Positions 30,551 to 33,500 of a stretch of 64,000 nt of DNA are shown one piece after another. The notes below the pieces were generated by a model, which did no database searches, was not told where the DNA came from, and saw nothing but the letters and a program-made list of their open reading frames with translations. Positions within the stretch are counted from its first letter, which is position 1; every line of letters starts with the position of its first letter. The translations under genes and the position numbers were made by a program. This DNA comes from Nakamurella multipartita DSM 44233 (GTDB lineage Bacteria > Actinomycetota > Actinomycetes > Mycobacteriales > Nakamurellaceae): NCBI RefSeq assembly GCF_000024365.1, contig NC_013235.1, positions 4,216,001 through 4,280,000 on the forward strand, written 5' to 3'.

Positions 30551-33500
30551 TCATTCGGCGAGCACCGCGGCCAGGTGCTGGAAGACACCGTTGCCGGCCT
30601 CGCCGTTGGTGAGGATCACGACGGCGTCGCCGGAGCGGAGCCGGCCGAACACCAGGGCCCGGAAGCCCGTGCACTCGCCCGTGTGTCCGTACTCGACGTC
30701 GCCCCCGCTGTCGTCGACGAGGGTGCCCAGCCCGTAGAACGCGCCCGGCACCGACCGGAGCATCTGCCCGGCGAGCTCGGGCCCGAGCAACGACGGCCCG
30801 AGATCCAGGGCCGACCGGCGGATCTCGATGGCCACCCGGGCCAGGTCGCTCGCCGTGGAGAACAGGCCGGCGGCCCCGACGTCGGGCCGGATCCGCCAGG
30901 GTTCCGGTCGCCGGCCGCCCTGGGCATCGTGCCCCCAGGCGGTCGCGGCCGGATCCGGCGGCTCGAAGCTGCTGTGCGTCATGCCCAGCGGGGCGAACAC
31001 CTGCTCCCGCATGAGGTCGGCGAACCGGAGGCCGGTGGCCTCCGCGATCACCTGCTGGACCACCGCGTAGTTGCTGTTGGCCGCCCGGAACTCGGCGCCG
31101 GGGCGAAGCTCCGGCCCGATCGGCGGCGAGGTCACCGGCGGGCGACCGGCCAGCAGCTCGACCAGTTCGGGCATGGCCGCGCCCGGCGGGTAGTCGGCCT
31201 GCTCCGGCGCGCTGAGCCCGGAGGTGTGGCCCAGCAACTGGCGCAGCGTCACCGGCTCGTCCCCGGGAATGCGCCACTGCGTCAGGTACCGGTTGACGTC
31301 GACGTCCAGGTCCAGCACGCCGCGGCGCACCAGCTGCAGGGCGCCGACCGCGGTGACCAGCTTGCTGACCGACGCGACCGGGAAGATCGTCTCCGGCCGG
31401 ACCGGGTCACCGCCCGCGCAGACCACGCCGAAGCCGGCGCACCCGGTGAGCTCGCCGCCGGTGACCATGGCGATCGAGACCCCCGGCACCCGGTGCTCGG
31501 CCATCGAGGCCAGCGGCGACGGGACCGGCCGGGCCGGCGGACGCGGCCGGTCGACCGGCGCGGTCGGCAGTGCGGTCGGCGGTGCGGCAACCGGCTCCAG
31601 CTCGGCCGCCAGCTCGCCGAGAGTCCGGTTCTCGTACAGCATCCGCAGCGACGGTTGCAGCCCGACGGCGTTCGCCTCGGCGACCACCCGGACCACGGCG
31701 ATCGAGTGGCCACCCAGATCGAAGAACCGGTCGTGCAGGCCGACGTCCGGCACCCCCAGGACGCGCGAGAAGATCTCGGCGAGCTGCCGCTGCGCGGTGG
31801 TGCGCGGGGCGACGAACGCGCCGCGCGCCGGGACGGCCAGCTCGGGTACCGGCAGGGCCCGCCGATCGAGCTTGCCGTTCGGGGTGAGCGGGAAGGCCGC
31901 GATCGTCAGGTACGCGCCCGGCACCATGTACTCCGGCAACCGGCGCAACAGGTAGCTCCGCAGGTCGGCCGGGGTCGGCGCGCTCTGGCCGGCAGCCGGG
32001 ACGACGTAGGCGACCAGGGACGGGCCGGCCGGCCCGGCGTGCCCGACGACCAGTGCGTCGGCCACGGCCGGGTGACTGATCACCGCCGCCCTGACCTCCC
32101 CCGGTTCGACCCGGAAGCCGCGGATCTTGATCTGGTCGTCGATGCGGCCACAGAACTCGAACGTGCCGTCCGGCCGGCGCCGGGCCCGGTCACCGCTGCG
32201 ATAGCGGCGGCTGCCCGCTGGGCCGTGTGGGTCGGGCTCGAACCGCTCTGCGGTCAGCGCCGGACGGCCGAGGTAGCCGCGGGCGACACCGGGCCCGGAG
32301 ACGGTGATCTCGCCGATCACGCCGGTGGGTACCGGCTCCCCGGCGCTGTCGATCAACTCGATGTGCAGGTCGGCCAGCGGTCGCCCGATCCGGTTCGCCG
32401 CACCGGGAGTCAGATCGGCCCGGGTGATCCGGTGATAGGTGGTGTGCACGGTGGTCTCGGTGATCCCGTACATGTTGATCAGGGCCACCCGGCCGAGCCC
32501 GTGCCGGGCCACCCAGGGCGCCAGCATCGGCATGTCCAGCTTCTCCCCGGCGAAGACCACGGTGCGCAGGGCGAGCCGGTCGATGCGCGGGTCGCCGGCC
32601 GCGGCCAGATCCACCAGGGCGCGGAACGCCGACGGGGTCTGGTTGAGCACCGTCACCCGCTGCTCGAGGAGCAGATCGAGGAACTCTCCCGGCGACCGGA
32701 GCATCGACTGCGGCACCACGACCAGCCGGCCGCCGTGCAGCAGCGCGCCCCACATCTCCCAGACCGACACGTCGAAGGCGAAGGAGTGGAACAGCGGCCA
32801 GCAGTCGGTCTCGTCGAAACCGTAGTGTTCCTGGCCGGTGTCGATCAGCCGAAGGACGTTAGCGTGGGTGAGGCAGACCCCCTTGGGCCGGCCGGTGGAG
32901 CCCGAGGTGTAGATGACGTAGACCAGATCGTCGGCCCGGCACCCGGTGACCGGGGCGGTCACCGGACGGTCCGTCAGGTCCTCGTCGTCGAGCAGCAGCA
33001 CCGTGCCGTCGATCGTCGCGGGCAGCAGCGGGCGCTGCGCGGAGTGGGTGATCACGATCGGCGCCCCGGCGTCGCCGAGCATGTACGCCAACCGCTCCGG
33101 CGGCTGCACCGGATCCAGCGGCAGGTAGGCGGCCCCCGACTTGAGCACCCCGAGCAGCGCCGGGATCAGGTCCGGGCCCCGGTCCAGGCAGACCCCGACC
33201 AGGGTGCCCGGCCCGGCGCCGAGCTCGATCAGCCGGTGCGCCAGCCGGTTCGCGAGGCGGTCCAGCTCGCGGTAGGTCAGCTGCCGGTCACCGGCCCGCA
33301 CGGCGACCGCGTCCGGGGTGGCCGCCGCCTGGTCGGCGAACCGCTGGGCCAGCGTGCCCGTCGGCGCCGGTGCATCGGCCGCGATCCCGGCGCTCACACC
33401 GGGTTCGGGCGTGGCGTGGTCCCCGGCCGGCAGGCACAGCCGGCCGCTGGAGCCGTCCGGGTCCGCGAGCAGGGCGTCGACCGCGGCGTCGAGCATGCCG

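Follow-up and report, generated by a model that had tools for sequence, protein, structure and literature searches.

An S12 domain lacking the Tyr-x-Asn tyrosine as probable cis release domain of a seven-module nonribosomal peptide synthetase in Nakamurella multipartita

Results

The 64,000-nucleotide stretch analysed here (hereafter the window; Nakamurella multipartita DSM 44233, NC_013235.1, positions 4,216,001 to 4,280,000) encodes P0001, a nonribosomal peptide synthetase (NRPS) of five condensation-adenylation-thiolation (C-A-T) modules that ends in an S12 domain (PF00144) and not in a canonical thioesterase (TE). The S12 domain comes straight after the last carrier (T) domain, the chain ends 43 residues past the HTG histidine, and the PF00144 match scores 199.8 bits against a cut-off of 27. 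A first-pass annotation had proposed such a fusion in cis, with SVSK about residue 5425, and this holds: the motif starts at 5426 and HTG stands at 5655 (motif positions were found by script and verified on the DNA; Table 1). Its further claim that the tyrosine of the YxN motif is missing is equally borne out. SxxK and HTG are present and YxN reads AAN, which the HMMER alignment sets opposite YSN of the R61 peptidase; within RAANSNY (residues 5521-5527) the Tyr slot is Ala5522 and the Asn is retained as Asn5524. SurE (6KSU), aligned via the free-standing relative P0053, reads FSYSNTGY at this site, and no intact Tyr appears in the alignment. Structure prediction, which that annotation had suggested as a check, gave a model (pLDDT 92.2) that matches the S12 fold when compared by VIA-align; the best fold matches are IS11 (7SPN) and EstB (1CI8), esterases of beta-lactamase fold, which in this predicted model lie as near as SurE. 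The model stops with the S12 fold, suggesting that P0001 has no lipocalin-like C-terminal domain. Pfam finds no alpha/beta thioesterase (PF00975) in P0001 or P0002, the companion NRPS, so the reported lack of one stands for the chain; a separate type II TE, which the annotation did not mention, is nevertheless encoded in the window and is the sole PF00975 match better than 1e-6 in the genome.

Residues 5340-5698 of P0001 were searched against about 5.8 billion proteins, taking candidates of 0.55-1.75 times the query length, of which 1007 were scored. All forty matches are NRPSs with PF00144, and in every one the match ends 4-49 residues from the C-terminus. With the window's own protein added, 33 of these 41 fused NRPSs lack the Tyr, the slot holding K in 23, E in 4, A in 2, G, Q, V and S in one each, and Y in 8. 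Free-standing relatives differ: among the best 120 of 675 matches, all 113 free-standing S12 rows carry the Tyr, the others being P0043 (the window's own) and P0044-P0049, short pieces of the Tyr-less kind, with a T domain visible in P0044, P0045 and P0048. The nearest free-standing relative among the listed matches is P0053, at up to 44% identity. A scan of GTDB genomes, from which the best 80 loci were kept, gave the same picture, with K (7) or V (1) in 8 NRPS-fused loci and Y in all 76 open reading frame (ORF) rows that are not NRPS-fused.

At E 1e-40 no T-S12 end was found in 100 relatives, 16 congeners included, so that its occurrence there is patchy and it may have been acquired. At 1e-70 a match occurs in 7 of 394 genomes of the class, the window's own among them. 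Within one genus, 27 of the 392 genomes searched have a strong match; the genus is probably Streptomyces, since its locus L105 and L010 of Streptomyces sp. AP-93 do not differ in the domain DNA compared. Among 36 loci (L090-L125, L090 being the window), 32 lack the Tyr, three are fused and keep it (L095, L115, L116) and one is free-standing with Tyr (L096). One Tyr-less subgroup (L097, L117, L118, L120-L122) reads KAG or KDG, so that the Asn is gone too; in three KAG/KDG members seen at length (L144-L146), the S12 domain closes short ORFs of 1,106-1,189 residues with one A-T module.

For phylogeny, 156 domains remained after thinning (every third of L018-L089 and part of the free-standing protein rows), reduced to 140 by similarity and to 82 by hand. 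The 140 rows comprise 65 fused or fragmentary domains without Tyr, 8 fused with Tyr, 53 free-standing with Tyr and 14 SurE-type with Tyr; 8 of the 65 were placed there manually, and no fusion is seen in 5 of these (P0046, P0047, P0049, L103, L107). In the 82-row tree, unrooted, with the three motif columns masked and without SurE itself, the 46 Tyr-less rows are split off from the others by a branch with UFBoot 100 and SH-aLRT 99, and the Tyr state changes once. The Tyr-keeping fused rows form a separate group (99/94); a single clade of both fused groups is not rejected (p-AU 0.513). The rows found with the SurE segment form their own group, with the window's row outside it, and L138, a fused protein of SurE type, falls among them; S12 fusion to NRPSs therefore probably arose at least twice. 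Since all free-standing rows carry Tyr, the change on this unrooted tree reads as a loss and not a gain, and the Tyr appears to have been lost once in an NRPS-fused S12 lineage of actinobacteria. The phylogeny of cis-fused domains called for in the first-pass annotation thus sets the Tyr-less rows apart as one clade, separate from the SurE-type fusion. The Tyr replacement in P0001 is real, yet it is no single-gene oddity: the window's domain stands behind an NRPS carrier, lacks a lipocalin domain, keeps SxxK and HxG and groups with these 46 rows.

Ser, Lys and His are retained in all 65 Tyr-less rows of the 140-row set, in which the slot is occupied by Lys (47), Ala (7), Glu (4), Ser (3), Val (2), Gly (1) or Gln (1). 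Lys is thus the commonest substitute, Ala being restricted to the small subclade of the window. In all 81 fused rows of the window's lineage the chain runs only 1-48 residues past the domain match. By the Nei-Gojobori method, dN/dS over the domain lies at 0.08-0.60 in 84 of 85 Tyr-less pairs, values that GC-rich codons make rough, and the remaining pair is identical; the S12 domain of the K-type relatives is under purifying selection. In a search for a gained substitute for the Tyr, Asp5645 and Arg5610 were the only charged residues that are near-invariant among the Tyr-less rows and peculiar to them.

The 8 Tyr-keeping members of the 41 fused NRPSs have an epimerisation (E)-type domain between T and S12. 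Its HHxxxD motif is intact in P0021, P0027, P0029, P0031 and P0035, and the domain is degenerate in P0040, P0041 and P0042. No E domain was seen at this place in the 33 Tyr-less fused NRPSs, judged by pattern and distance, nor by Pfam in any of the 8 genome loci L010-L017, among them L016, a Tyr-less member from Streptomyces coeruleorubidus ATCC 13740. Within the window's lineage an intact E domain is accompanied by Tyr in seven of seven cases (the five above, L115 and L116), and most Tyr-less domains come straight after T. A simple rule by which NRPSs with no E domain would have no Tyr was nonetheless dropped, because proteins with the domain order of BifB keep the Tyr; within the window's lineage alone it survives as a tendency. 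The same proteins speak against the expectation that BifB would be Tyr-less, which had rested on its Gly as last residue and on its last T being followed by no E domain.

The genes around P0001 are listed in Table 1. The assembly line would comprise seven modules, two in P0002 and five in P0001. Because SbnA and SbnB score above their NCBIfam cut-offs, 2,3-diaminopropionate is a likely building block of the peptide, and it might be carbamoylated by the carbamoyltransferase-like protein. In the MbtH-like protein the MbtH fold is preceded by some 65 N-terminal residues rich in Asn (NNNGANNNG...). Four internal C domains of P0001 (residues 1256, 2320, 3403 and 4447) carry (S/C)HxxxEGW or SHLIVGGW in place of HHxxxDG, and the T domain ahead of each reads GGDS, GGHS being found in the last T domain; these C domains are possibly a distinct condensation (or condensing/epimerising) class, and NHAIAEGW in the relative L142 resembles their motifs. 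An IS110-family transposase (19572-20810, +) stands between the type II TE and the remaining cluster. Several arrays of 17-22 bp tandem repeats (25010-25819; e.g. CGCTCCACCGAACCGAACAC) lie between the DUF4097 and transporter genes and give rise to long ORFs that are spurious. A pyridoxal phosphate-dependent decarboxylase fused to a carrier domain (56841-58406, +) has as neighbours an acyl-CoA dehydrogenase, a ketoacyl synthase III-like protein and an AMP-binding enzyme; together they may make up a further small pathway.

Table 1. Features of the P0001 region, in window coordinates
Feature	Position	Strand	Basis or remark
NRPS P0001, 5698 aa, five C-A-T modules with the S12 domain at the C-terminus	30551..47647	-	Pfam
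S12 domain (PF00144), residues 5381-5694	30566..31507	-	E 8.5e-59, predicted model, fold matches
SVSK, with Ser5426 (31370-31372) and Lys5429 (31361-31363)	31361..31372	-	motif location on DNA
Ala5522-Ala5523-Asn5524 at the Tyr-x-Asn site	31076..31084	-	alignment and motif location
His5655 of HTG	30683..30685	-	motif location on DNA
Ser5315, phosphopantetheine site of last T domain (LGGHS)	31703..31705	-	motif and Pfam
Asp5645	30713..30715	-	98% conserved in Tyr-less rows, mostly another residue elsewhere
Arg5610	30818..30820	-	94% conserved in Tyr-less rows, mostly another residue elsewhere
NRPS P0002, 1665 aa, A-T-C-A-T (modules 1 and 2), without a starter C domain	47647..52644	-	Pfam
MbtH-like protein	52714..53127	-	PF03621, E 8.4e-19
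SbnB (2,3-diaminopropionate biosynthesis), second half of ORF, residues 316-639	53142..55091	-	TIGR03944 above cut-off
SbnA (2,3-diaminopropionate biosynthesis)	54143..55159	-	TIGR03945 above cut-off
Free-standing condensation domain, HHIASDA	55271..56623	-	motif
Ornithine/aspartate carbamoyltransferase-like protein	29533..30516	-	below NCBIfam cut-off of all 16 matched families
Type II thioesterase, free-standing, nearest solved relative RifR	18553..19443	-	family and structure-relative matches
Phosphopantetheinyl transferase	20828..21493	-	
TauD-family dioxygenase	21496..22566	-	
MMPL transporter	25949..28177	-	
MFS transporter	within ORF 28265-30067	-	

Discussion

We propose that the S12 domain of P0001 is a cis release domain of a seven-module NRPS, probably a macrocyclising one that works with its Ser-Lys pair in spite of the lost Tyr. 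That it cuts the finished peptide loose is very likely, in line with the role in release or cyclisation considered in the first-pass annotation. The data show the fold (in a predicted model), the motifs, the fusion, the single clade and the conservation, from which release, cyclisation, the proton path and the stereochemistry are inferred. The peptide on the last carrier would be handed to Ser5426, with Lys5429 as base, to give an acyl-enzyme that would be resolved by the peptide's own N-terminal amine (most likely to a head-to-tail macrolactam) or by water. For this Lys5429 should be enough, helped by Asn5524, His5655, water or the attacking amine; most relatives have a Lys in the slot. The Tyr, regarded as central to catalysis of this kind, is thought to supply a proton to an amine leaving group, a proton that a thioester substrate should not need. 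A thiolate leaves without protonation, so that absence of the Tyr is plausible, but SurE keeps its Tyr and the thiolate argument is therefore not the whole story. The last T domain is not followed by an E domain, so the C-terminal residue of the peptide is probably L or achiral.

Penicillin-binding protein (PBP)-type TEs are described in a 2024 review (PMC11735501) as stand-alone, two-domain enzymes that join an N-terminal L- to a C-terminal D-residue, some accepting Gly; a tetrad of Ser, His, Asn and Lys is listed, and in SurE and Ulm16 the lipocalin domain helps to form the cleft. All four tetrad residues are retained in the window's domain. It resembles SurE, Ulm16, PenA, WolJ and FlkO in having the S12 fold, SxxK and HxG (as in SurE) and a probable place in the handling of NRPS peptidyl thioesters (PMC11735501); these enzymes are stand-alone, with a lipocalin domain, a C-terminal D-residue (or Gly for some) and, in SurE, YSN, whereas the window's domain is fused and has neither lipocalin domain nor Tyr. 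The stand-alone character of the SurE family is not found here, and BifB shows that it is not absolute: its cis-encoded SurE domain is termed unique within NRPSs, and deletion of the domain abolishes biffamycin (Angew Chem 2026, PMC13285481). BifB resembles the window's system in that the S12 domain sits behind the last T domain and the first NRPS is A-T-C-A-T, as in P0002. Biffamycin was the sole cis case found in a literature search on NRPS-fused lactamase/PBP domains, which covered mostly papers outside subscription. That PBP-type cyclases are mainly free-standing, as the first-pass annotation had it, thus needs qualification: one cis case is published, and fusion is not rare (40 further NRPSs; 27 of 392 genomes). 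The T-E-S12 NRPSs with Tyr (P0021, P0027, P0029, P0031, P0035, P0040-P0042, L115 and L116) are fused and lipocalin-less like the window's protein and differ from it in the Tyr and in the E domain, intact in seven and degenerate in P0040-P0042. The nearest free-standing sequence relatives and best fold matches, IS11, EstB and CubicO-like S12 proteins, are unfused, carry the Tyr throughout (113 and 76 rows) and usually have about 100 extra C-terminal residues.

Several observations weigh against our proposal. SurE has been assigned a Ser-Lys-Tyr-His tetrad in a 2020 review (PMC7459860), and the dN/dS sample consists of Tyr-less K-type relatives outside the window's own subclade. BifB, the sole cis domain tested in print, is no witness for the Tyr-less domains, because BifB-type proteins keep the Tyr. 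BifB was judged here by relatives in domain order, not by its own sequence: P0165 (the same gene as L138) has the BifB order, a SurE-type end with a lipocalin-sized tail and 16 close relatives, and all 17 proteins (P0165-P0181; C-A-T-E-C-A-T-S12) have the Tyr (YSD) and about 150 residues after the His. They belong to a SurE-derived lineage apart from the window's, and BifB itself is predicted to keep both Tyr and lipocalin domain. Their last A domain has what we take to be a Gly-like signature, the only use made of specificity codes, which are unreliable when read by script. The link between Tyr loss and a missing active E domain is also statistically weak, because all Tyr-less rows trace to one change. 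It has exceptions besides: BifB-type proteins have no E domain after the last T and P0040-P0042 have a degenerate one, and both keep the Tyr; L143 has a T domain, the apparent first residues of an E domain, a serine-rich linker and an S12 domain with Tyr, which looks like an E-domain deletion; L142 and P0182 combine T, a degenerate E and a Tyr-less S12 domain (KGL and LTP), a possible intermediate architecture. Lastly, the type II TE and the free-standing C domain could take part in release.

Alternatively, the domain might act simply as a thioesterase and release the peptide in linear form, its N-terminus open or acylated by the free-standing C domain. The equal closeness of the predicted fold to the esterases IS11 and EstB and to SurE would suit such hydrolysis, as would the HHxxxD motif of that C domain and the missing lipocalin domain, which in SurE and Ulm16 lines the cleft in part (PMC11735501); module 1, however, lacks a starter C domain, as in biffamycin, which is a head-to-tail ring, and we regard hydrolytic release as rather unlikely. 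A second alternative is a dead relic or a binding domain, in which loss of the Tyr meant loss of catalysis and the type II TE or another enzyme released the product. The SurE tetrad cited above and the presence of a type II TE in the window speak for it, but RifR-like type II TEs serve in editing, and Ser, Lys and His persist in all 65 Tyr-less rows, with purifying selection in the K-type relatives; catalytic residues would hardly be retained over such divergence otherwise, which makes a dead domain distinctly improbable. In the case of surugamide, too, the cyclase was not SurF. Least credible is a role in peptide processing or self-resistance, with a peptidase- or beta-lactamase-like action on product or precursor: S12 relatives do include D-peptidases, ClbP and AmpC, yet the domain is fused behind the last carrier in NRPSs of many sizes, which argues for a carrier-bound substrate.

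With a release domain in P0001 taken as the preferred reading, a broader view can be put forward tentatively, with more doubt than confidence: the Tyr-less domains might form a large unrecognised actinobacterial class of type I NRPS release domains that have no lipocalin lid, descend from one Tyr loss and release (cyclise) peptides with L- or achiral ends, using Ser-Lys alone or with a Lys in the Tyr slot. If true, this class would mirror SurE, which demands a D-residue. PBP-type cyclases serve as peptide-cyclisation biocatalysts, limited by their need for a C-terminal D-residue or Gly (PMC11735501). From a fused, smaller, Tyr-less family whose assembly lines mostly lack a final active E domain one would expect cyclases that accept peptides ending in an L-residue; such a family would also demonstrate that S12 enzymes can do without the Tyr on a thioester substrate. 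For genome mining, it would mean that a release domain is present after all in some TE-lacking NRPSs of actinobacteria, its database label being only PF00144 or beta-lactamase/CubicO.
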